DNA of 24,777 bases from Thermococcaceae archaeon (GTDB taxonomy: Archaea; Methanobacteriota_B; Thermococci; Thermococcales; Thermococcaceae): contig JAMOPD010000422.1 in NCBI GenBank assembly GCA_027064745.1, forward strand, positions 1-24,777, given 5' to 3'. A program made the translations under genes and the position numbers. The notes beneath the pieces are model-generated. The model was not told where the DNA came from. It ran no database searches and saw only the letters and a program-made list of their open reading frames with translations. Positions 7,256 to 24,672 of this stretch are shown piece after piece (positions within the stretch are counted from its first letter, which is position 1; the number at the start of each line of letters is the position of its first letter).

Positions 7256-9244
7256 TTATCCTATATAAATACTGCTTGAAGACACAGCACGCCCAACCTC
7301 CACATCCCCAGATCCTGCAATTGCACCATCTGCACCTACGTAGTATTTTTGACCAACAGAAAGTCCTGCAAAGGAATCTTGTTGTCCAACCGTCTTAAAA
7401 CTAATCTCATCCCATGTAATTACATCACTAACACTAAACCCATCAAAAAAATTTGTTATAGCATTTGTATTATCACTCTTATATACAAAACCTGCATTTA
7501 AATACCCTGTGCCATAAATTTTAATAGTCAAATCTCCAATACTGCCCGACCATGTAGCACCACTATCAGCTGACGTTTTTGCACTGCCACCAGCATAAAC
7601 ATCTGAATCTTTATATAAAACAGAGTAATAATTTACTGAATCAACAGTCCCCCCAGCTTTTAATACAATTATATATTTTTCGCCAACCGTTAATTCACTT
7701 GAGAACACGCTATACATAACCCCATCATCATAAAGCACTTCTTTTGTTTCTAAAACGCTCCCTGTTGGATTTTCATTTGCATCTGCCAAAAACAATTCCA
7801 TGACTGGTAAAGAGGGGTTCCCCACAACAGACCCAGCAACCTCAACCATCCCAAGTGTTTTCATTTTTAGTGGTGTGAAGCTTTGCATTACTCTTTTAAT
7901 ACTTGAATCTAAATTATAAAGAGTACTTTGTTGTGATTGAATGATACTCTTACAATCGTAAAGTCCCATATAAAAAACAATGTCATTTTCACTGTCATTC
8001 CATTTACCACCAGGATAGACATCAGAGCCTGCTAATTGTATATAGTTTGACTGTGTTCCAGCCCCATTTGTAAATGAAAATGTAAACCTAGTGCCACTAG
8101 GTAGTCCCGTACTTACGTGGTGTTGAACAGAGAAACCTTGAACACCTGGAAACTCTTTTTCATAAAACATATTCCCACTAGTTCCTACCCCCTCATACCC
8201 CCTTATCCATAAAGTTTTAACTGGTGCATTTGAATTCCTAAATTTAAATATAAAATAACCAAATCTCTGAATATCAGTTTTAGTAAAAGTTTGATACCCA
8301 AGAACAGAATCATTCTCTGTGTATGTTGTTTGATTGGTCGTGGATACATTGTAGTACCCCCCCCCTGAAACAAAAATAGATTTTGGAGTTGAAGACCCAT
8401 CAATAGGCTCCCCAGCCGTAGCACTAACGAACCCCAACCCACTATGAATATGTAATGCATCTGCATTTGACCCATCTGTTAATGCTTCAAAATCAGTCTT
8501 AGCATTTGAGTCAAAACCCACCTTGAAGCTTTCGTCTGCACCAGTATTCTCTTTTGTCACCATAAAATGATCATCTGCCGTCAATTTATCCTCAAGATAA
8601 TTAGCATTCGTATCACCACTAGATACTTGCACAGCACCTTTTGCCTTAACAATCCCAGCCGTTATGTCAATACCATCCCCAGCAGTTATTGACCCTGTAC
8701 CTCCACCCACATCAGTAGTAGAAATACCATCATTAGAAAAAACCCATTTGTCATTAACTTTATCATATCGAATGAAAGGTTTATTTGTATCTGCATTTTG
8801 TGCGTAAAATGTTATATCACTATCAGTCTCGTCTCCAAGCCTAAAGTCTTTTCCACCAGTCCCCTCATTTCCCCTAAGTATCTCATTTAAGATCTCAAGT
8901 GGGATATGGACATCTGCAATCCCTATTTCTTTACCGATCACATGCCTATTCCCAGTCGCTGAACCAAGAACATTCCCATATTTAAGCAAAGAACGCCCAT
9001 TAGTTGCAACCGTGATCTCAGTCACCCCATCCGTAGTTGTATGACTCTCAGCTAATATCATTTCAAACTTCTCATCATCCTTGTCTAAAGTGAAGATAAG
9101 CGTACCAGCTTGTGGCTCTCGTGCTACCCCTGTCTTTTTATCTGTAAATTCTGCGTATATAGTTGTAGAGTCTGTCTGAACATTCTCCCGAACTATCATA
9201 CCTACCAATCCTGTCTCTGTTGACTGTGGTTTTTGTAAACTCAT
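7256..9244 (-). CDS. Tail fibre / appendage protein with repeated beta modules, 662 aa
   Basis: This beta-rich, Gly/Ser/Thr-rich protein was recognised by composition and layout. Residues 1-125 look like a virion-attachment domain. Residues about 130-270 are fibre-like, with the short segment DALHIHSGLG. Residues about 450-580 form a module beginning MQSFTPLKMK and ending SGATWSGSIGDLTIKIYG, of the 'choice-of-anchor'/carbohydrate-binding jelly-roll style; a diverged partial copy may occupy about 322-427 (SDVYPGG compared with SDVYAGG). The C-terminal 35 residues (VGQKYYVGADGAI...VGRAVSSSSIYIG) match a common phage fibre terminus. The gene is two bases from the stop of the stabilisation-protein gene and precedes the CHAP protein. 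Receptor binding is probable but the ligand is unknown. A baseplate or head fibre would be the alternative. Confidence 0.7.
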   Translation of the reverse strand: MSLQKPQSTETGLVGMIVRENVQTDSTTIYAEFTDKKTGVAREPQAGTLIFTLDKDDEKFEMILAESHTTTDGVTEITVATNGRSLLKYGNVLGSATGNRHVIGKEIGIADVHIPLEILNEILRGNEGTGGKDFRLGDETDSDITFYAQNADTNKPFIRYDKVNDKWVFSNDGISTTDVGGGTGSITAGDGIDITAGIVKAKGAVQVSSGDTNANYLEDKLTADDHFMVTKENTGADESFKVGFDSNAKTDFEALTDGSNADALHIHSGLGFVSATAGEPIDGSSTPKSIFVSGGGYYNVSTTNQTTYTENDSVLGYQTFTKTDIQRFGYFIFKFRNSNAPVKTLWIRGYEGVGTSGNMFYEKEFPGVQGFSVQHHVSTGLPSGTRFTFSFTNGAGTQSNYIQLAGSDVYPGGKWNDSENDIVFYMGLYDCKSIIQSQQSTLYNLDSSIKRVMQSFTPLKMKTLGMVEVAGSVVGNPSLPVMELFLADANENPTGSVLETKEVLYDDGVMYSVFSSELTVGEKYIIVLKAGGTVDSVNYYSVLYKDSDVYAGGSAKTSADSGATWSGSIGDLTIKIYGTGYLNAGFVYKSDNTNAITNFFDGFSVSDVITWDEISFKTVGQQDSFAGLSVGQKYYVGADGAIAGSGDVEVGRAVSSSSIYIG

Positions 9245-12009: not shown

Positions 12010-12267
12010 TTACTTAATTATTACTAGTGACAAAATCCCGCCCAAGACCGCCAAGATTATCATCCAATTTAATCTCTTCATAGCTATCTCAACCTCCTTA
12101 CTAGCGTACCTCTTGTCAAGCTTATCAAAGATGTTAGCCAAAGTGGCTTCAATCCTAAGGACCGCATCCCTAAGCTCTTTATGCTCTTTCGTGTTGTACT
12201 CCTTCATACTTTTAACCTTTTCCTCGACTGCAGTTATCCTTTCAGCCATATTAATTGCGTTATCCAT
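12010..12267 (-). CDS. XhlA/holin-like coiled-coil protein with C-terminal membrane anchor, 85 aa
   Basis: Residues about 8-65 are a heptad-rich amphipathic helix (ERITAVEEKVKSMKEYNTKE, VLRIEATLANIFDKLDKRY), followed by one hydrophobic segment at about 68-84 (WMIILAVLGGILSLVIIK) ending in a single Lys. This layout matches the haemolysin XhlA family of phage proteins, which work with holins in host lysis; generic coiled-coil virion membrane proteins look similar. Its ATG overlaps the stop of the phospholipase-like gene by 8 bases (ATGGATAA), suggesting translational coupling and a shared job in the host membrane. A holin-type role is inferred; a membrane-anchored structural protein is the alternative. 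Confidence 0.6.
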   Translation of the reverse strand: MDNAINMAERITAVEEKVKSMKEYNTKEHKELRDAVLRIEATLANIFDKLDKRYASKEVEIAMKRLNWMIILAVLGGILSLVIIK

Positions 12268-12613
12268 TTGTTATTTTTGTTAAATCTGATATAGTCCTCT
12301 GTTTTCCCCAATTAAAGAAGAATATTCCAAATACTGATACCATTATATAATATACAGTTGACATTAGGAAATAAAATATTCTCAAATAGTATTTATCCAC
12401 TCTCCAAACGTCACACAACATGTAATAATAGAACCAATAATCTCCTCTAATCTTATCCCATAGATTTCCACCTCTCCAATAATAAAAGTCATGTTGGCAA
12501 CAATCTGCTAGGAAGATAAAGTTTGGAATGAAGAGGGCATATTTGCCCCCTCCACACCCATTGCATAAACTTGCTTTTTGTCCATCTGTAAGCTCTCTAT
12601 AATGCAATTTCAT
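12260..12613 (-). CDS. Phospholipase A2-like membrane protein, 117 aa
   Basis: The core has the prokaryotic PLA2 arrangement. A Cys/Gly-rich loop CNGCGGGKYALFIPN (residues 17-31) could be the calcium-binding region. It is followed by FLADCCQHDFYYWRGG (34-49), where His41-Asp42 match the C-x-x-H-D-F-x-Y catalytic motif of bacterial and phage PLA2-like proteins. A further Asp58 in RGDYWFYYYMLCDVW lies near where a second catalytic Asp would be expected. Residues about 76-101 form one very hydrophobic segment, probably membrane-spanning, so the enzyme domain would be membrane-tethered. The start overlaps the 99-aa gene by 17 bases and the end overlaps the holin-like gene by 8. Known PLA2s hydrolyse the sn-2 ester of phospholipids; activity here is inferred from motif only. 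Roles in lysis or in membrane penetration at entry are both possible. Confidence 0.65.
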   Translation of the reverse strand: MKLHYRELTDGQKASLCNGCGGGKYALFIPNFIFLADCCQHDFYYWRGGNLWDKIRGDYWFYYYMLCDVWRVDKYYLRIFYFLMSTVYYIMVSVFGIFFFNWGKQRTISDLTKITNG

Positions 12614-12896
12614 CTTGTTGTGGTAATGAATTTACAATTTTCCAATTAGGATTTTCTTCCATAACTTCATCCCACAATGCTAATTCCTCTTCACTAGACG
12701 TTGTTAGACGGTTCTTGTTAACTAAATCATATATACCTTTCACTACGTAACTGGAATCGTCTATAACAGTGTAATTCAGGTATTCACGTGGATCAGCTTC
12801 TGGATCGATTGTTAACCCTGGTAGTTCTGCAAACTTTTCAGGGATTGTTGCCACTGCATTTGCTTCTTCTAACGGTACTTTGATGTATTCAATCAT
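12597..12896 (-). CDS. Small acidic protein of unknown function downstream of fibre ORF, 99 aa
   Basis: I do not recognise this family. The protein is acidic, with IDPEADPREYLNYTVIDDSSY in the middle and an acidic helix EEELALWDEVMEENPNWKIV near the end. No membrane segment or catalytic motif is visible. It starts 21 bases after the stop of the LamG fibre ORF, and its end overlaps the PLA2-like start by 17 bases, so it is co-translated with both neighbours. Small genes directly after fibre genes are sometimes fibre-assembly chaperones, but nothing in this sequence shows that. The leader (AATATTAACATAACAACAAAC) has no Shine-Dalgarno sequence. It is real by packing and overlap; function is unassigned. 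Confidence 0.65.
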   Translation of the reverse strand: MIEYIKVPLEEANAVATIPEKFAELPGLTIDPEADPREYLNYTVIDDSSYVVKGIYDLVNKNRLTTSSEEELALWDEVMEENPNWKIVNSLPQQDEIAL

Positions 12897-12917: not shown

Positions 12918-15608
12918 TTATTTATTTATACATTTTATAATTTTTGTCATATTCTCTGCCGTTTGAGGTGTGTCATACATCACTAATTTTCTGTGTTTCT
13001 TGTCTTCCATGTTCATCATTACTTGATGCTTGTTGCTGAAATCTTCTTCCATTTCTTCATAGAATAATGGCGGTATAGCCCCATCTTCCCACACGACTAT
13101 CTTAGAGATTGTAATATCCACAACACCTGAACGTTTAATTTCAATAACATTCCCAGTACTACTTGCTACTACACTGCCTGATACAATTCCGACAACCTCT
13201 AATTTAACATATTGACCGCCTAAATATATTGTAGCATATCCACTCCCTGAGAATTCTTCTATTACTATATAATATTTATACGTTTTATTTTCGTCTATTG
13301 TTTTAGTAGACATAAAATTATATAAAACATAATCTCCGTCTGGTGCATATAACCTTGTCCCAGCAGCTACTTTCTCTACTATACTCGTTCCAGTTGTTAC
13401 AATGTTTGCATCACGAATTTTAGTATCATTATTAATCCATTCTAACGATTTATTGTTTGTTAAACTAGCAATCAGAACACTATCTTGAATATCTTGATAT
13501 AATGGAGATAATTGTATTCCAGTCTCTGCCCCATTATGCCATCTATTAGCGGGATTAGTTAGTGGATAGTTTTTTATGTCTAACAAATTAGTCAAAGCTG
13601 GTATTGCTGGATAATATATCGAAGTACCAGATTTCGTTAATTTACCCCCACTAATCGAATCATAAAATCCATTTTTTATACCACTATGAAAATTATAATC
13701 TGCCACCAGCACATTATTTTCCCAAATTCTAACCAAATAAACAGTCATGTCCCTTTTTGCAACCGAATAAACACCGCCAACAGATAAAACTTCAGTATTT
13801 GTTCCTGACCAAGTACCAGTATTTGTGTCTGACAAAACACCATCGACATATAAACTACCATTTTCAATCAAGAACGTGTGGACTTTCGTATCAAAAGCAA
13901 CCGTGCCATTTCTGCCAACAAAAGATTCATTCCCCCAACCTAAAACAAAGGAGTCATTATATACCGCCACATAATATCTACCAGACTCATCAGAGGTGTA
14001 TGCGCCCAAAACAACGCCTTGTCCTTCATTTGTAATTGAACATACAACTTCAAGTTTTGTATTTTCAGACGGTACAATATCAGTTAACCCATGTGCCGAA
14101 GTTGTTATTGCCACACTACTAAATCCATTAAGCATATTATAATGGTATACATCTTGTCTTCCACTCCAGAAATCACTAAGTGTAGCACCTGATAATGTAG
14201 CGTCACCACCTGCCGTTCCAGTATTAAACAATGTACCCCCTGCACCCTCACTCATTGCGAACACATGTCCACTAGAAAGCCTTAGCTCCCAGCATGTCCC
14301 AGCAGTGAAAGTTATCTCTCCGTTAGCTATCGTTGGAACAGATGTACCCCCAGAGCTAATTACAGTCTCAGTACCAACTAAATCACTAACAAGCATTTTA
14401 GCTGAGCCATCGAATTCCCCACAAAAAGATTGAACCAATTTAGCATTAGCCGATTGCCAGAAACCGTCGTAGTAATTAATTATATCAGCACCGTTAACAG
14501 TTAACCCTGTTTGTTCTGTGAAGTCGAATGTTTTAGAACCAACTTTAGCATAAGCTATTTCACCAGTGAAATAATCATCATAAGCCACATTATCAGTATG
14601 CCCCAGTGTTGTCTTAGATGTACTATTTGTTTTTACATCAGTTATACTATAATTAACAGTTTGTTCAGCTCCACCATTCAAGGTATATGTTAACACCCCT
14701 GCATTAAAATTACCTTGCAAGTCAATCCAAGTATTAGCCTCAAGACCAGTCAATATAGTTTTCTGCTCTTGCGTTCCAGCACTATCAACCAAAATGAGGT
14801 ATAGGTTATTTGAACCAGTAGATGTGTAGGTAAAAAACAATATCTCACCGTTTACATCACTTATATATTTTGAAAATGGAACTTCGTAATCATCATTAAA
14901 CCCTAATTTCATAATGAAATGAAAATCAAAGTTTGTTCCATTATGTATAGGTGACGTATCCCCCTCAACATAACAAGTATTATCAAACACACCATACCCA
15001 TTTTTAACTTCAACAGTTCCAGAATAATCAGTTTGCCAGAAATCGTCTAAAGTAGCACCTGAAAGTGCTGCATCTGCTCCTGTGCCAGTGTTCTTTAATG
15101 TTGTAGTGCCATAGTCGTCGTCAAATGTGAATTCTGCAGTACCCATTTTGATATAATATATTTCACCATAGAATGGATACGTATTATCACTATCACGTGT
15201 CCCAATAGATGGGTTAACCTGACTGTCAAATAAAGTTGTAATTGTTGGCAAAGTAACCTTTGGGTAATCAACACCATTAACATTAATATTACACACACCA
15301 GCATTAAAAGACCCTATCACTGTGTATAACTCACCATTAACTAGACCTGTTGCAAACTCGGCAATCTCAAAATCCACACCATTCTCACTTGCGAACATAG
15401 ATAATGCACCACTTGAATTAACTCGTACACTAAATGAATAAGCACCACCACCATTAGACATTTGACCAAACACACCTTGAACAACCCCAATTGATAAATC
15501 AGCGGGACGAATTATAAATTTAAAATCTAATTCAGTAGAAGTTTGTAAAAAATCAGTTGTATCAACTAATCCATATGCAGAACCATCAAACACACCATAA
15601 TGTGTCAT
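12918..15608 (-). CDS. Multi-LamG/concanavalin-like fibre or adhesin ORF (possibly the -1 frameshift extension of the 169-aa gene)
   Basis: This is an 896-codon ORF from the first in-frame ATG at 15608. It contains tandem lectin-like beta-sandwich modules, each starting with a (G)VFDxSxYG-type strand and ending near a GEIYYIKMG/GEIAYAKVG strand. Module 1 spans residues about 3-165, module 2 about 205-365, a short degenerate copy about 395-480, and module 4 about 485-645. Linkers repeat LSGATLxDFW at about 182-191 and 472-481. A further beta domain lies at about 710-840, then a charged tail. LamG/ConA-like domains usually bind glycans. The same frame is open for 48 codons upstream of this ATG, back to a stop at 15755-15753, with no other ATG, and meets the preceding gene at a ten-A run. 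Expression may therefore be by frameshift and not by the 15608 start, although AAAGGA just before 15608 could support an internal start. Adhesin role inferred. Confidence 0.75.
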   Translation of the reverse strand: MTHYGVFDGSAYGLVDTTDFLQTSTELDFKFIIRPADLSIGVVQGVFGQMSNGGGAYSFSVRVNSSGALSMFASENGVDFEIAEFATGLVNGELYTVIGSFNAGVCNINVNGVDYPKVTLPTITTLFDSQVNPSIGTRDSDNTYPFYGEIYYIKMGTAEFTFDDDYGTTTLKNTGTGADAALSGATLDDFWQTDYSGTVEVKNGYGVFDNTCYVEGDTSPIHNGTNFDFHFIMKLGFNDDYEVPFSKYISDVNGEILFFTYTSTGSNNLYLILVDSAGTQEQKTILTGLEANTWIDLQGNFNAGVLTYTLNGGAEQTVNYSITDVKTNSTSKTTLGHTDNVAYDDYFTGEIAYAKVGSKTFDFTEQTGLTVNGADIINYYDGFWQSANAKLVQSFCGEFDGSAKMLVSDLVGTETVISSGGTSVPTIANGEITFTAGTCWELRLSSGHVFAMSEGAGGTLFNTGTAGGDATLSGATLSDFWSGRQDVYHYNMLNGFSSVAITTSAHGLTDIVPSENTKLEVVCSITNEGQGVVLGAYTSDESGRYYVAVYNDSFVLGWGNESFVGRNGTVAFDTKVHTFLIENGSLYVDGVLSDTNTGTWSGTNTEVLSVGGVYSVAKRDMTVYLVRIWENNVLVADYNFHSGIKNGFYDSISGGKLTKSGTSIYYPAIPALTNLLDIKNYPLTNPANRWHNGAETGIQLSPLYQDIQDSVLIASLTNNKSLEWINNDTKIRDANIVTTGTSIVEKVAAGTRLYAPDGDYVLYNFMSTKTIDENKTYKYYIVIEEFSGSGYATIYLGGQYVKLEVVGIVSGSVVASSTGNVIEIKRSGVVDITISKIVVWEDGAIPPLFYEEMEEDFSNKHQVMMNMEDKKHRKLVMYDTPQTAENMTKIIKCINK
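14164..14236. repeat. Fibre linker repeat, copy 2
   Basis: Imperfect direct repeat of the segment at 15033-15108. Both encode an N-T-G-T...LSGATLxDFW linker that ends a LamG module. DNA identity is clear over the block containing GTAGCACCTGA and CCAGAAATC, so the modules probably arose by tandem duplication within the gene. Confidence 0.6.
15033..15108. repeat. Fibre linker repeat, copy 1
   Basis: Partner of the repeat at 14164-14236. It encodes LKNTGTGADAALSGATLDDF followed by Trp, between LamG modules 1 and 2. A third, decayed version (LTVNGADIINYYDGFW) lies near 14453-14504, at the end of module 2. Confidence 0.6.
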
Positions 15609-15725
15609 GATTCCTTTTGACTCTTTTGTGTACTCATTAAAAACCGTTACCCCCTCTGGTGCTTTCTTATTGAGGTATACGGCTTGTAAACCAGCTTTTG
15701 GGAATTTACACCCCCTGCTTAGAAT
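15609..15725 (-). CDS. Untranslated-looking gap that is open as a 39-codon linker in the fibre frame
   Basis: Between the TAA of the 169-aa gene and the ATG of the LamG ORF, the fibre frame has no stop and reads ILSRGCKFPKAGLQAVYLNK followed by KAPEGVTVFNEYTKESKGI. This looks like normal protein and runs directly into MTHYGVFDGS. It contains no ATG. It would be translated only if ribosomes shift -1 on the A10 run, if RNA polymerase slips there, or if the run length in the record is wrong by one base. The reading is seen directly; translation is inferred. Confidence 0.55.
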
Positions 15726-15735
15726 TTTTTTTTTA
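15719..15735 (-). promoter_or_regulatory. Candidate programmed -1 frameshift site (A10 run)
   Basis: On the coding strand the 169-aa gene ends GTA AAA AAA AAA TTC TAA. The run provides A AAA AAA in the correct phase (X XXY YYZ), twice, two codons before the stop. The purine box AGGAG lies immediately upstream. Downstream, TGTAAA (15710-15705) can pair with TTTACA (15690-15685), and an AGC/GGG...CCC/GCT arrangement is an alternative fold. The -1 frame opens only after a TGA at 15755-15753 and stays open through the whole LamG ORF, so the two frames overlap by just 31 nt around the slippery run. Computed by eye; no folding program was run. Confidence 0.6.
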
Positions 15736-16228
15736 CTCCTGTGTACATAACCTCAGCAACCAGATCAACATTAGCACTACCAGAGTTAACCAATAGATAT
15801 TTAAATCTATTAGTAGCTATTACAGAAATAGCATCCTCAGATATTAGCGTATCACGTCTTAGAAGTAAGATATCTCCAGAAACAGCCTCAAAATCAGAAT
15901 CATTAACAGGTGAATATGTTAAAACATTCCCACTTATTGAATCTATTCGTATCGCCCCCTTGTGTTCACTTGCTGAATCTAAAACTGGCACAGTTTCCCC
16001 TATCCTGAACAGTGTTCCGTCTGCAACTGTATATGTGTTCCCAGATTGTGCAGAAGTCACAATAGAAGCCTCTGCAGTTCTTATAGCCAAACTATCAAAA
16101 TCAGAGTCCTCATTAACTTCCAAATAGAAAGTTGGTCCTCCTGAGCTAAGTAAGCTTATCGTTTGTCCATTAAAATCCTCTTTCAAATACAATTTCTGAT
16201 CGTTACCTGTTGTTGTTATTGTAGGCAT
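15719..16228 (-). CDS. Beta-rich head/fibre-base protein following the major capsid gene, 169 aa
   Basis: Outer parts (residues about 1-52 and 127-164) look like one beta domain (FNGQTISLLSSGGPTFYLEV; NRFKYLLVNSGSANVDLVAEV) split by an inserted module at about 55-125 with the phage-typical pattern YTVADGTLFRIGETVPV ... IRIDSISGNVLTYSPV. It is the first gene after the major capsid protein, a common place for decoration, head-fibre or minor capsid proteins. The C-terminus GVKKKF is encoded by the A10 run. A -1 shift would replace the final Phe with a 39-residue linker and the 896-residue LamG ORF, giving about 1103 aa, so this protein would be both a stand-alone product and the anchor of a long appendage. 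Its leader AATAAAAAATTAAAA lacks a Shine-Dalgarno sequence. The exact structural role is unproved. Confidence 0.65.
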   Translation of the reverse strand: MPTITTTGNDQKLYLKEDFNGQTISLLSSGGPTFYLEVNEDSDFDSLAIRTAEASIVTSAQSGNTYTVADGTLFRIGETVPVLDSASEHKGAIRIDSISGNVLTYSPVNDSDFEAVSGDILLLRRDTLISEDAISVIATNRFKYLLVNSGSANVDLVAEVMYTGVKKKF

Positions 16229-20829: not shown

Positions 20830-20857
20830 ATTATAAAACTTTTACCCCTTCCGTCAA
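20830..20857 (-). promoter_or_regulatory. Candidate sigma70-type promoter upstream of the portal gene
   Basis: On the coding strand TTGACG (20857-20852) and TATAAT (20835-20830) are separated by 16 bases. This is close to the general bacterial consensus and would start transcription about 15-20 bases before the portal ATG at 20805. The -35 box overlaps the terminase stop codon TGA. It does not fit the Bacteroidota -7 consensus (TAnnTTTG), which counts against it if the host is a Bacteroidota. Confidence 0.35.
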
Positions 20858-23424
20858 AACTTTATTTTCCTTTCCCACGGCTTGTCAAACCTGCGACCAC
20901 TAAATCTAAGTCCCTTAGGTTTCCTCTTTTGAAATAAAGGTGACATAGATCTACTCTTTCTTTCTGACCTATCTGGATCGTGTGCAATACACATATACCT
21001 GAATGCGTCTGCATAATCAGAAGTCCAATCATGTAAAGGCTTGTCCTTAAACACCTTTTTTATAGGGTCGTATTCTTTTTGATAATTCTCTAAGGCAAGG
21101 ATTAAGTCTTCATTCTTTTTCTCATCTATCCAGATATCCTTGAACCTAGCCCTTGTAACCTGAATGCCCTCCTGCTTATCACTCTGCCCTTTTCTTATAT
21201 AATTGGTTCTAAATCCAGCATCCTGAAATTGTTCACGAACTGTCCTTTTCATCCCAAACTTCTTGTGTTCCCCATCATGAGGAAACCACAACGTATCATA
21301 GATATACCCCCTCTTATTAAGCATATATACATATTCTCCAACATCTTTCCCATTTGAAGCCATATGGTCTATAACGTGAATTTCCTTCCCATTACTCTGT
21401 ACGAAGATAAACACGCTACTATCATGTTTCCCAATATCCGTATAGACAGAAACCTTCTTTGTAGGGTCATATGGAACATGACAAATCCTATCCTCTACTC
21501 GCATCTTCTGGATCTGATCAACATAATACGCACCAACAGCACCAACCTCAAAGGAACACGAATATTCTTGCTCAATCATTGCTGGCAACATACCACTATC
21601 CCTCTCCTTTTGAATATCATCTTCTGTTAAAAACCCTGTATCCCTCCATGTGAGCTTCTGATAAAACCAATCTGGATTATCCTTTGCAACCTGAGCCATC
21701 TTGTAGAAGTGGTTTTTCCCGTTTGGCGTATTGTGACTTATAAATCCATTAGAAAAAAACGAATGAGTATCTGGAATAACAAAATCATAAACACAATTCC
21801 TTGATCCTGAAATTGAAACAATTTCATCATAATAAAAATTATCGGATATAACCTTATCGAACTCGTTAGTTTTTAAAGTTTTTAATTTCCTATATGAGAT
21901 AACACCATTCCCCTGATGTTTTATATAATAATCCTTGGTCTTCTTTGCAGCCTCAAACAACGCACTCTTATTTACCTTAACAACATCACCATAATACTTC
22001 ATTGCAGACTCAGACAATAGGACTTTCCTATCTGATTTTCTACTCAATCTAAACCCTATATGTTCATGGAATAGATATGCACTATACCCATCAATTTCAA
22101 GCCTATAATATCTAGAAGACACCTTTACCTTTTTAGTTGGTGGTGTAATCCCAGTTTGATACTTAGCAACAATCCCATAATTCAACAGAATAACTTGCAA
22201 GTCCTTTGTGAGTTTCTTGCTGGCAGATGAGGACAGAACCCTTCCCCTAGTGTCTGCACATCCATCAGCATCAAAATATCCAGATATAAAAGCCGACTGA
22301 AAACGCTTAGACAAGGACAACACCCCCTCTGGAATAACCTTGTTTTTCGCAAGCAGTTTTTCAAACCCAATCGCTTGAAGTTTTTGCACATGATACTTAC
22401 TACACTTTCTATAATGTAAATCATCAAAATCTCTTTCATACCCCCTGCTTAACAAGAAATTCACTGTCTCTTTATCATTGGTTGTAACAACAACATATCC
22501 ACCCTTATAATTAATATACCCATCTCCTAGGATAAGACCAGCCTCATAAAAGAAGTCTTCTGAGAACCCATCCTCATAGTCTGTATCCTTGTTTTTACTT
22601 TTTCTAAACTCATTTAAACTTGGCAAATCTGGGACAAAATCACCGAATACATTTTGTCCTCGCTGTATTGCCACTGAGTCCCCAATCTTCCATTTATCAG
22701 CACGCACCCATTGATGCCCATTCCAGAGTTTATGCTCTGGTGTGCATTCTATTTCGTACCCAGACTTAGTCGTAATAACAAGCGTATTCCTCTCTCCTGC
22801 AACATAATATTGTTCAGCAGTATGAAACTCATTATCAAGCCCAAAATAATCTTCATTTATGTCCGTGTACCCCTGTGGTAAATTTCTACCTATTCTCTCA
22901 AAACCATTCCTCCCTAAAATCAAAGTATCAGCAACAACACAACTATTAAAAATAGCCCAACCACCATTAGCTCTCAAGATAGGAGAAACAACCGCAAAAG
23001 CCCTTGGGTCCTGAAAGGCGTACTCAGAGAATACGCAACCAACTGGGTTTGTTCCTCGAACCGAATCAAAACGGTCTGTCCCAATTATCTGTATAAGACT
23101 GCCATTCTTTAAGGTTATCTTCAATTCCTGAGAGTTCATGCTTTCTACAAATTCCTTTGGGATACAATCAACAAAACGCAGCCCATCATTAGTCATCCCA
23201 TCCCATATTATTTTTTTACCCTGTGAATATGTAGGCAGGAAATAATAATATATTCCAACCCTCTCAACGGCAAGACGTACCATTAGATTAAACATAGTAA
23301 AATCTTTACCTGCACGCCGATGCCACATGGCAAAAGCTCTCTTCCCCCCGGCCAACATAAACTCAATCAAAGGCTTCTGGTATTCCCTCGGCTTAAATGG
23401 TACTACAAAGGTCCTATCACTCAT
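20854..23424 (-). CDS. terL: Terminase large subunit interrupted by an intein, 856-aa precursor
   Basis: This is the packaging motor ATPase/nuclease. The N-extein carries a deviant Walker A, HRRAGKD, at residues 35-41, and a Walker B-like strand with acidic residue, GCVFSEYAF, at 129-137. The coupling motif is split: AIFNS (157-161) is joined after splicing to TPNGKNHFY (566-574). The nuclease domain in the C-extein has Asp663 in YTDIGKHDSS, Asp717 in FPHDGEHKKFG and Asp803/Asp806 in TSDYADAFRY, matching RNase H-fold terminase nucleases. Removal of residues 162-565 gives a 452-aa terminase, a normal length. The neighbours are the GroES-like gene (11-base gap) and the portal. The leader AACAAAATAAAAC lacks Shine-Dalgarno. 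The identification is strong. Confidence 0.93.
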   Translation of the reverse strand: MSDRTFVVPFKPREYQKPLIEFMLAGGKRAFAMWHRRAGKDFTMFNLMVRLAVERVGIYYYFLPTYSQGKKIIWDGMTNDGLRFVDCIPKEFVESMNSQELKITLKNGSLIQIIGTDRFDSVRGTNPVGCVFSEYAFQDPRAFAVVSPILRANGGWAIFNSCVVADTLILGRNGFERIGRNLPQGYTDINEDYFGLDNEFHTAEQYYVAGERNTLVITTKSGYEIECTPEHKLWNGHQWVRADKWKIGDSVAIQRGQNVFGDFVPDLPSLNEFRKSKNKDTDYEDGFSEDFFYEAGLILGDGYINYKGGYVVVTTNDKETVNFLLSRGYERDFDDLHYRKCSKYHVQKLQAIGFEKLLAKNKVIPEGVLSLSKRFQSAFISGYFDADGCADTRGRVLSSSASKKLTKDLQVILLNYGIVAKYQTGITPPTKKVKVSSRYYRLEIDGYSAYLFHEHIGFRLSRKSDRKVLLSESAMKYYGDVVKVNKSALFEAAKKTKDYYIKHQGNGVISYRKLKTLKTNEFDKVISDNFYYDEIVSISGSRNCVYDFVIPDTHSFFSNGFISHNTPNGKNHFYKMAQVAKDNPDWFYQKLTWRDTGFLTEDDIQKERDSGMLPAMIEQEYSCSFEVGAVGAYYVDQIQKMRVEDRICHVPYDPTKKVSVYTDIGKHDSSVFIFVQSNGKEIHVIDHMASNGKDVGEYVYMLNKRGYIYDTLWFPHDGEHKKFGMKRTVREQFQDAGFRTNYIRKGQSDKQEGIQVTRARFKDIWIDEKKNEDLILALENYQKEYDPIKKVFKDKPLHDWTSDYADAFRYMCIAHDPDRSERKSRSMSPLFQKRKPKGLRFSGRRFDKPWERKIKF
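21730..22941 (-). mobile_element. Intein with LAGLIDADG homing endonuclease inside terL
   Basis: This is an in-frame insertion of 404 residues (precursor 162-565). It begins with the splicing Cys in CVVADTLILG (block A). Block B has TPEH in SGYEIECTPEHKLW, two LAGLIDADG-type motifs are AGLILGDGY (Asp301) and ISGYFDADG (Asp387), block F is YDFVIPDTHSFFSNG, and it ends FISHN followed by extein Thr566. All residues needed for class-1 splicing are present: Cys1, block-B Thr/His, penultimate His, terminal Asn and a +1 Thr nucleophile. Both endonuclease Asp residues are kept, so it looks active and mobile. The insertion point is the S-TP of the terminase coupling motif, a conserved site typical of inteins. 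Confidence 0.93.
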
Positions 23425-23435
23425 GTTTTATTTTG

Positions 23436-23678
23436 TTATTTTTTATCTTCTACGGCAAAGACATCGGAACTGTGAATGATAAAACTATCTCCAGCAGTGT
23501 CAAGAGCATACTTTGCAAATACGGCAATATCACCCACCTTGATAACATCGCTATCAGAAGCGATAACCTCACCCCTTGAGAATTTTGCATTAGAGTCCAC
23601 ACTTGTTATGAACCCTGAGTTATCCAACTCATTGTCTTCTTTTTTAACTATAATGTTTCCGTTTATTGGTTTAAGCAT
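23436..23678 (-). CDS. GroES-like co-chaperonin, short form, 80 aa
   Basis: The pattern follows the Cpn10 barrel: LKPINGNIIVKKED (the N-terminal strand PLgdRvlVk), then a loop ELDNSGFIT at the place of the GroES mobile loop, AKFSRGEVIASD (GroES STRGEVLAVG), VIKVGDIAVFAKYA (DVKVGDIVIF), and a C-terminal DSFIIHSSDVFAVEDK (EVLIMSESDILAIVE). At 80 aa it is shorter than GroES (about 97) because the roof region between GEV and KVGD is trimmed. Co-chaperonins cap GroEL; phage versions (T4 gp31 type) adapt the host chaperonin to fold the capsid protein. It overlaps the upstream gene by 8 bases and precedes terL, consistent with a head-assembly role. Assignment by motif order; GroEL binding is inferred. 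Confidence 0.75.
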   Translation of the reverse strand: MLKPINGNIIVKKEDNELDNSGFITSVDSNAKFSRGEVIASDSDVIKVGDIAVFAKYALDTAGDSFIIHSSDVFAVEDKK

Positions 23679-24144
23679 CGATTTTTTTTATAAATTTTCT
23701 AATTTCTCCTTTATCAGTCCCGCTTCTAGCAAGATCAATTAATTCATGTAGCATCTTAATAAGTTCCTCCTTTTTAGCTATGCTAGTTTTAATCATACGT
23801 CTCAAGTTTGATCGGAATCTCCCATCTAGATTCTTTTTGAACAATTCATCCATAATCCCATTTTTAAGATCATTGTAATCAACAGCGGTAGATTGTTTTT
23901 TAACCTTTGCTGCAATCTCCTTTGCCTCCTCTGAACTCTTCACGGCTTCTATAACCTCCTCGACAGGTTTACTCGTGTCATCTGCAATTTCCTCAGCCTT
24001 AACAGCCGTAGCAGCCCCTCTCATATCTTTAAGCTTTTTAAAGATAGCTTTGTCGGCACTAGACAGATTAACCCATTTAACTCCTGCCTTTGCCATGATT
24101 TCTCTCATTTCGTTCAGAGTCTTTGCTCCTGCGTAATCACTCAT
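23671..24144 (-). CDS. Helical charged protein of unknown function before the GroES-like gene, 157 aa
   Basis: The family is not recognised. The N-terminal third is YAGAKTLNEMREIMAKAGVK and SSADKAIFKKLKDMRG. The middle is an acidic/Ala-Lys helix (PVEEVIEAVKSSEEAKEIAA). The C-terminal third is basic (DELFKKNLDGRFRSNLRRMI, KGEIRKFIKKIDA). There is no membrane segment. The gene stop overlaps the GroES-like start by 8 bases (ATGCTTAA). Small, helical, basic-ended proteins shortly before the large terminase are often small terminase subunits, but no helix-turn-helix could be identified by eye, so that is only a possibility. A DNA-binding or assembly protein would also fit. The leader AATAACAAAAAACATT has no Shine-Dalgarno. 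Confidence 0.7.
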   Translation of the reverse strand: MSDYAGAKTLNEMREIMAKAGVKWVNLSSADKAIFKKLKDMRGAATAVKAEEIADDTSKPVEEVIEAVKSSEEAKEIAAKVKKQSTAVDYNDLKNGIMDELFKKNLDGRFRSNLRRMIKTSIAKKEELIKMLHELIDLARSGTDKGEIRKFIKKIDA

Positions 24145-24161: not shown

Positions 24162-24326
24162 TTATAATTTTCTTAATATCTTTCTTAGTACGTGCCTAGC
24201 CTTAGGATTACGTGCTTCTCTAAGCATATCCTTAACACTCCCCTTATTTTGCCTTTTAGTCATCCCCTCGACATCCTCAGCCTTTTGGACACCATTATCA
24301 ACTATCTCAGTGACATTATACTGCAT
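24162..24326 (-). CDS. Small basic protein of unknown function, 54 aa
   Basis: This is a short gene that packs exactly into the gap between its neighbours. ATG at 24326 overlaps the end of the RusA-type gene by 11 bases, and TAA at 24164-24162 lies 18 bases before the next start. The product begins MQYNVTEIVDNGVQKAEDVE and ends with a basic helix, KARHVLRKILRKL. There is no recognised family or membrane segment. Basic C-terminal helices in such small phage proteins often bind nucleic acid, but that is a guess. The overlap and lack of any other explanation for the interval support it as real; as a 54-codon ORF it could still be chance. Confidence 0.6.
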   Translation of the reverse strand: MQYNVTEIVDNGVQKAEDVEGMTKRQNKGSVKDMLREARNPKARHVLRKILRKL

Positions 24327-24672
24327 ATTTGCTTATTTTAATAATTATTCTCTCATCCTCTTTGCTTGAGACCTTCCATTTTTCAGAAGACACCCTTTTT
24401 ATATATCTATCATCTAATATCACCTTTGCATGCGTAAGTGAATCAAGAATTGGTTTTATCATATTATCAGCATCCGCCCTCTGAAAGTTTTTTATATAAA
24501 ATTCCAGATCAACCACTATCCACTCCTTCATCTCCGTAAAAGGCTTCTCACTTATAAGCATTGTAGCCACATCAAGCCCCCACTGCTTGTATACCTTTGA
24601 TTTAAACCTACGCCCCTGCCAACACTTATTAACAGATATAGGGGGTACTTTAACGATTATTTTTCTGCTCAT
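24316..24672 (-). CDS. rusA: RusA-type Holliday junction resolvase, 118 aa
   Basis: The sequence has the RusA signature: an N-terminal VPPISVNKCWQGRRFKSK loop, then the strand DLEFYIKNFQRADADNMIKP with Asp67 and Asp69, Lys73, Asp77 in ILDSLTHAKVILDD, and Asp88 in the terminal acidic pair. These match the catalytic acids (Asp70, Asp72, Asp91) and the Lys of E. coli RusA. The length is usual (about 120 aa). RusA dimers cut four-way junctions symmetrically; in phages they resolve recombination and branched replicative DNA before packaging, fitting its place upstream of the terminase. It overlaps both neighbours (23 bases upstream ORF, 11 bases downstream), indicating one operon. Active-site residues appear complete. 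Confidence 0.88.
   Translation of the reverse strand: MSRKIIVKVPPISVNKCWQGRRFKSKVYKQWGLDVATMLISEKPFTEMKEWIVVDLEFYIKNFQRADADNMIKPILDSLTHAKVILDDRYIKRVSSEKWKVSSKEDERIIIKISKYAV

Follow-up and report, generated by a model that had tools for sequence, protein, structure and literature searches.

Organization of the locus

In the window, which is the whole 24.8-kb stretch of DNA analysed, a short gene on the minus strand runs into a long open frame coding for an adhesin-like protein, and two small genes lie beyond it. The features of this region are listed below; the two RNA structures stem from fold prediction.

15719–16228, minus strand: short zero-frame gene, 169 aa, ending ...GVKKKF* (sequence)
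15725–15734, minus strand: A10 slippery run, containing A_AAA_AAA twice in phase (sequence)
12918–15752, minus strand: open -1 frame of 944 codons, comprising the overlap with the zero frame, the linker and the adhesin (reading of the open frame)
15609–15724, minus strand: linker of 39 codons, read in the -1 frame from the last A of the run onwards, with no ATG, GTG or TTG; homologous in L002, L073 and P0007
15700–15715, minus strand: predicted hairpin of 6 bp with a 4-nt loop, spacer 9 nt
15641–15685, minus strand: predicted larger stem AAGCCGUA.ACCUC/GAGG..ACGGUU, its 5′ arm identical in L002
12918–15608, minus strand: LamG/concanavalin A-like adhesin, 896 aa past an internal ATG (PF13385, E 9.3e-10)
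12597–12896, minus strand: gene of 99 aa, 50% identical to a 95-aa gene of L002 over 94 residues
12260–12613, minus strand: gene of 117 aa, 68% identical to its L002 counterpart over 109 residues

The 169-aa gene ends with GTA AAA AAA AAA TTC TAA, as the initial annotation of this DNA had stated, and the two overlapping heptamers are placed in phase two and one codons before the stop. Behind a TGA, the -1 frame is open from 15752 to 12918. Its earliest ATG, GTG or TTG is the ATG at 15608, so that the linker, previously noted to be free of ATG, is free of the two other start codons as well. The length of the fusion that had been given as about 1103 aa agrees with the sum of 168 and 935 residues. 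The A10 run is the sole A/T run of at least nine bases in the window, and in-phase A_AAA_AAA or A_AAA_AAG heptamers are found six times in total at the 8059 in-phase positions of the 19 open reading frames.

It had further been argued that this combination is hard to get by chance. For the open frame alone this does not hold, as 39 random codons of the window's composition stay open in 5.2% of trials (about 1 in 20), and the window without its relatives makes no more than a suggestive case for recoding. The argument stands once the relatives are added: the junction is more than chance because it is conserved in them.

Relatives of the short protein and their junctions

A protein search yielded seven relatives at E 0.001, the protein of the window included (3730 candidates from 5.8 billion). 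The family may be larger, because this search catches only relatives that have short exact words in common. The other six proteins are 33–66% identical to the one in the window; P0008 is nearly the same as the L002 protein and thus not independent. KKK is found within the last five residues of all seven proteins and directly before the last residue in six of them. The 169-aa domain matched no family in either PHROGs or Pfam at E 1e-3. Of five structure models one reached a mean pLDDT of 81 and the other four stayed below 60; the modelled domain is rich in beta structure and has a common barrel, a fold that does not indicate its function.

Four viral contigs carry the small domain: L002 and L003, found by search A2, and L073 and L076, added by search A5. 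Search A2 in genome contigs and search A1 in viral contigs gave none, searches A6 and A7 returned only contigs already known, and single-sequence scans of viral contigs with the 169-aa protein and the major capsid protein (MCP) found none. The DNA pattern of the linker hit 4 viral and 63 genome stretches; these were scored against the linker, and among the best 15 the only relatives were the copies of the window itself and the two viral contigs already known (scores 264–267, the next being 57). With tblastn there was no match in phages and plasmids, and among 115 genomes of the phylum of the bin only the bin itself, G000, matched.

L002 and L003 are identical in sequence through the junction and are counted as one lineage. 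The L002 homologue (7381–7887, 37% identical) ends CTA-AAA-AAA-AAA-TCT-TAA, its A10 at 7872–7881 is the sole A/T run of at least eight in 15.0 kb, and its -1 frame codes for a linker and a LamG protein homologous to those of the window. The L073 homologue (8001–8528) ends GTA-AAA-AAG-TAT-TAA and its protein accordingly KKY, with KK instead of KKK. Its site is A_AAA_AAG at 8516–8522, without a long homopolymer (A6G), and the -1 frame again encodes a homologous linker and adhesin. A comparison of homologues for the run and the frame had been called for, and it shows a slippery site (A10 in L002 and L003, A_AAA_AAG in L073) and a homologous -1 frame in both lineages. P0007 contains the linker as translated protein, and its aligned junction reads TPF-I without a lysine run; as a speculation, this junction could read CCC-TTT (C_CCT_TTA, then TAA), which fits the residues.

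These junctions bear on two simple explanations. Some sequencers have difficulty with a run such as A10, and a wrong homopolymer length could hide one continuous gene in the true genome. However, the same layout is present in separate contigs, in L002 and L003 and, without the long run, in L073. In addition P0003 (169 aa) and P0005 (890 aa), which have the same source, both list 17,095 bases as their longest contig and probably represent the same split on a single contig. Because the junction recurs with a homologous linker in L002 and L073, a private homopolymer error and a chance open frame are both strongly argued against, and we give a sequencing error practically no weight. Alternatively, a former fusion gene might have decayed and been split at a homopolymer by chance. 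A fused arrangement does exist, as L076 codes for a 305-aa protein (7983–8900, after the tail genes) in which the small domain (E 9e-13 to that of L073) and a different C-terminal region share one frame. Thus recoding is not obligatory for the small domain. Yet three lineages (window, L002, L073) have kept a conserved open -1 frame, with the zero-frame stop one codon past the slip site in each, and decay is therefore highly improbable. The junction has the look of a functional switch rather than of a sequencing error.

The linker and the downstream RNA structure

The linkers of L073 and L002 are related with a BLAST E of 1e-8 in the -1 frame, those of the window and P0007 with 1e-13. At conserved linker residues of the window and L002, 18 of 24 codons are identical, versus 42 of 94 in the flanking genes, that is, the 169-aa gene and the first 100 adhesin codons (Fisher p 0.011). 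This excess could reflect either a constraint at the RNA level or a recent recombination or exchange of the linker.

The conservation of the linker also bears on whether the locus simply consists of two genes, in which case reinitiation or coupling would start the adhesin at the internal ATG (15608). In favour of this, L002 has an ATG at the equivalent place (8001). Against it, this ATG has no AGGA, GGAG or GAGG upstream, although most L002 starts lack these motifs too; P0007 (GITKHYG) and L073 have no methionine there, L073 having a GTG within the linker; and upstream of the ATG the linker shows conservation at the protein level in its own frame. We consider two separate genes improbable.

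The predicted 6-bp hairpin has a counterpart in L002, also with a 4-nt loop but with a 10-nt spacer and with arms differing from those of the window; such 6-bp hairpins are predicted at 11–13% of positions anyway. By the same test L073 showed no hairpin with 6 bp and a 4-nt loop. For a broader comparison 80 nt starting 4–5 nt past the slip site were folded and ranked among segments of the respective contig. The folding energy was matched or beaten by 18 of 412 segments for the window, 17 of 250 for L002 and 1 of 275 for L073. By z-score 40 of 412 and 25 of 250 segments were as good or better for the window and L002, which is unremarkable; only L073 has an outstanding z (-4.4), its downstream structure being the strongest of the three. 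An alternative fold of L073 is predicted to close with a GCCGAG/CUCGGC stem at a spacer of 6 nt, and a longer stretch is predicted to prefer another fold. An Rfam scan of the window gave no match at the gathering score.

AGGAG (15736–15740) and the pair TGTAAA/TTTACA, which the initial annotation had brought forward as possible signals, are both present. The latter was rejected as a downstream stem, since the predicted fold does not contain it; AGGAG is taken up below together with the host.

Proposed expression of the adhesin

We suggest that the adhesin is expressed by a programmed -1 ribosomal frameshift at the slippery run, and put the probability of this reading at roughly three in four. 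The earlier proposal of such a frameshift is thus supported, the junction recurring in two further phage lineages with a homologous out-of-frame linker. The slippery site, the linker and the stop are conserved in three lineages; from this arrangement we infer the slippage itself, its ribosomal site and its efficiency. The majority of ribosomes would read NTA AAA AAA AAA (or NTA AAA AAG) and one more codon before the stop, giving the short 169-aa protein, and a minority would shift one base backwards within the lysine run, giving a minor fusion of about 1103 aa. The slip may be aided by the downstream RNA structure. Both products would join the same virion structure, in which a limited number of copies would bear a sugar-binding arm.

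The same two products might arise during transcription: if RNA polymerase slips on the A10, mRNAs with more or fewer A's result, and these would be translated normally into the fusion. A run of at least nine A or T is present at the junction in the window and in L002, where A10 is found in both, and bacterial RNA polymerase slips efficiently in vivo on 9 A or T, according to the available part of PMC5009743. The run is absent at the L073 junction, however, which has only A6G, and the E. coli enzyme was found in one study to need a minimum of 7 T or, for A, a run longer still, as far as the available text goes (PMC6260861). Because L073 does not reach this length, has the shift-prone A_AAA_AAG and, without a long run, shows the strongest downstream structure, ribosomal slippage is the better reading, and polymerase slippage appears rather unlikely. 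In E. coli A_AAA_AAG is far more shift-prone than A_AAA_AAA and the other heptamers tested (PMC5009743, in the part available). This comparison counts against the sites of the window and L002, because both are A_AAA_AAA, present instead as two overlapping copies. The natural variants A10 and A6G offer a means to separate ribosomal from polymerase slippage.

Annotated as two genes, the locus has an adhesin without a convincing start or anchor; read as a frameshift product, the adhesin would be a fixed minor arm of the virion.

The adhesin and the accompanying genes

Homologues of the adhesin are P0005–P0007 and the proteins of L002 and L073. Laminin_G_3 (PF13385) is matched with 39.3 bits in the window (Pfam cut-off 27.6) and with 55.6 bits in L002; it is the sole domain matched in these two adhesins and spans about 100–120 residues. 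The L073 adhesin matched no family, and its C-terminal part is 36% identical to that of the window over 212 columns. Binding of host glycans by the LamG arm is what its domain would imply.

The 99-aa gene is related to a 104-aa gene of L073 via L002, the relation between L002 and L073 being weak. The L002 counterpart of the 117-aa gene resembles a 223-aa gene of L073 over 42 residues (E 7e-5) around C..HD. NGCGGG...FIPNF...C..HDFYYW is found in the products of the window gene (12260–12613, minus strand) and of L002 11803–12156; the L073 counterpart lies at 12176–12847. This sequence is reminiscent of the catalytic motif of phospholipase A2; no Pfam match was obtained even at E 5.

Virion types and host

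In the window the MCP and an SU10-type adaptor are encoded nearby, and a phrog_2941 virion protein is present in both the window and L002; from their genes both look like short-tailed phages. L073 is long-tailed by its gene order, with a tape-measure-sized gene, a chaperone-like slip and a weak match to a tail-fiber family. The "post-capsid" position assigned to the short gene initially is therefore accidental, as the same gene pair sits in the tail module of L073. What lies next to its gene, namely the MCP and the SU10-type adaptor gene of the window and a tail gene of L073, would place the short protein in the virion.

The MCPs (BLAST E 0.10) and the portal proteins (E 0.36) of the window and L002 are unrelated, and for this reason the cassette appears to have moved together with its slip site. 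We read it as an exchangeable adhesion cassette, made of a small virion anchor, a minority of whose copies would carry a LamG arm, and two small genes. Tentatively, and at somewhat less than even odds, we extend this to a mobile cassette (anchor with slip site, linker and LamG arm, plus the two small genes) which takes its own recoding signal from phage to phage, whether short- or long-tailed, and from host to host, whether or not Shine–Dalgarno initiation is used. If this is true, only part of the anchors would bear the arm in any virion acquiring the cassette. The frameshift reading as such suggests that setting the dose of a receptor-type domain through recoding is a conserved and transferable trait in its own right.

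By its RNase P RNA, bin G000 is archaeal (RF00373, 198 bits, cut-off 84; bacterial RF00010 53 bits, cut-off 100), and a search of the bin for a bacterial 16S gave none. The tetranucleotide correlation with contig C63 of the bin is 0.55 for the window versus 0.74–0.83 for five other, shorter contigs. AGGA, GGAG or GAGG within 20 bases upstream of the start is found at 1 of the 17 starts listed for the window, 1 of 16 in L002, 6 of 11 in L073 and 7 of 12 in L076, and the single such start of the window is one inside the linker. Starts without Shine–Dalgarno motifs are the pattern of Bacteroidota. The window contig (G000:C422) is probably mis-binned and its host probably belongs to the Bacteroidota. 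Given this host, AGGAG before the run is an unlikely stimulator; the window has one start with a Shine–Dalgarno motif, and the L002 run is not preceded by AGGAG.

Comparison with known systems

In the two long-tailed relatives, L073 (1361–1840) and L076 (1282–1668), genes that we name tail-chaperone-like by position only end TTA AAA AAA AAA TAA/TAG with a -1 frame behind; the L073 gene had no match in PHROGs. These A10 junctions serve as an internal yardstick for the signature of -1 recoding. As in the lambda G/GT chaperone, the slip would take place near the end of the short gene, and the corresponding genes of L073 and L076 end NTA AAA AAA AAA stop. In lambda, however, the product is a chaperone extension and not an adhesin. 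The heptamer A_AAA_AAG of L073 is identical to that of E. coli dnaX, where the shift leads to an early stop, whereas here the zero frame holds the stop and the shift would lead to a long extension.

According to the parts available of the respective sources, frameshift-extended virion proteins with Ig-like domains are known from T3 and A2, and coat and tail extensions also from Listeria phages (PMC5009743); SPP1 gp17.1* gains an FN3 domain by frameshift (PMC6316719), TpeX of the lactococcal 936 phages a BppA-like carbohydrate-binding module (CBM; PMC6669499), and a site of this kind has been employed as a display tool (PMC13370021). The present system would resemble those of T3, A2, SPP1 and the 936 phages, as described there, in that two products have the same structural domain at the N-terminus and the one made by frameshift ends in a domain for surface binding. 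It differs in that the base is an undescribed 170-aa family and not the major capsid or tail-tube protein, in the LamG payload of about 935 aa and in the lysine-run site. A very large lectin-domain protein within a structural module has its parallel in gp76 of phiCbK, a large concanavalin-like protein near the head genes; the available text of PMC3556154 reports no frameshift for gp76. Of the matches listed, mostly from outside subscription journals, none speaks in its title or in the opening of its abstract of a LamG adhesin gained through frameshifting. Thus the principle is known, and the base protein family, the LamG payload, the lysine-run site and the cassette across virion types appear to be new.

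Other genes of the window

All further genes mentioned here lie on the minus strand. In the gene 23671–24144 an A_AAA_AAA lies in phase, three codons ahead of the stop; judged by coordinates, the gene that follows does not use the -1 frame. The terminase large subunit (20854–23424) is split by an intein that carries a LAGLIDADG domain (PF14890, PF14528). The region 23436–23678 codes for a Cpn10-like co-chaperonin, just under the Pfam cut-off, and 24316–24672 is a RusA-type nuclease gene.
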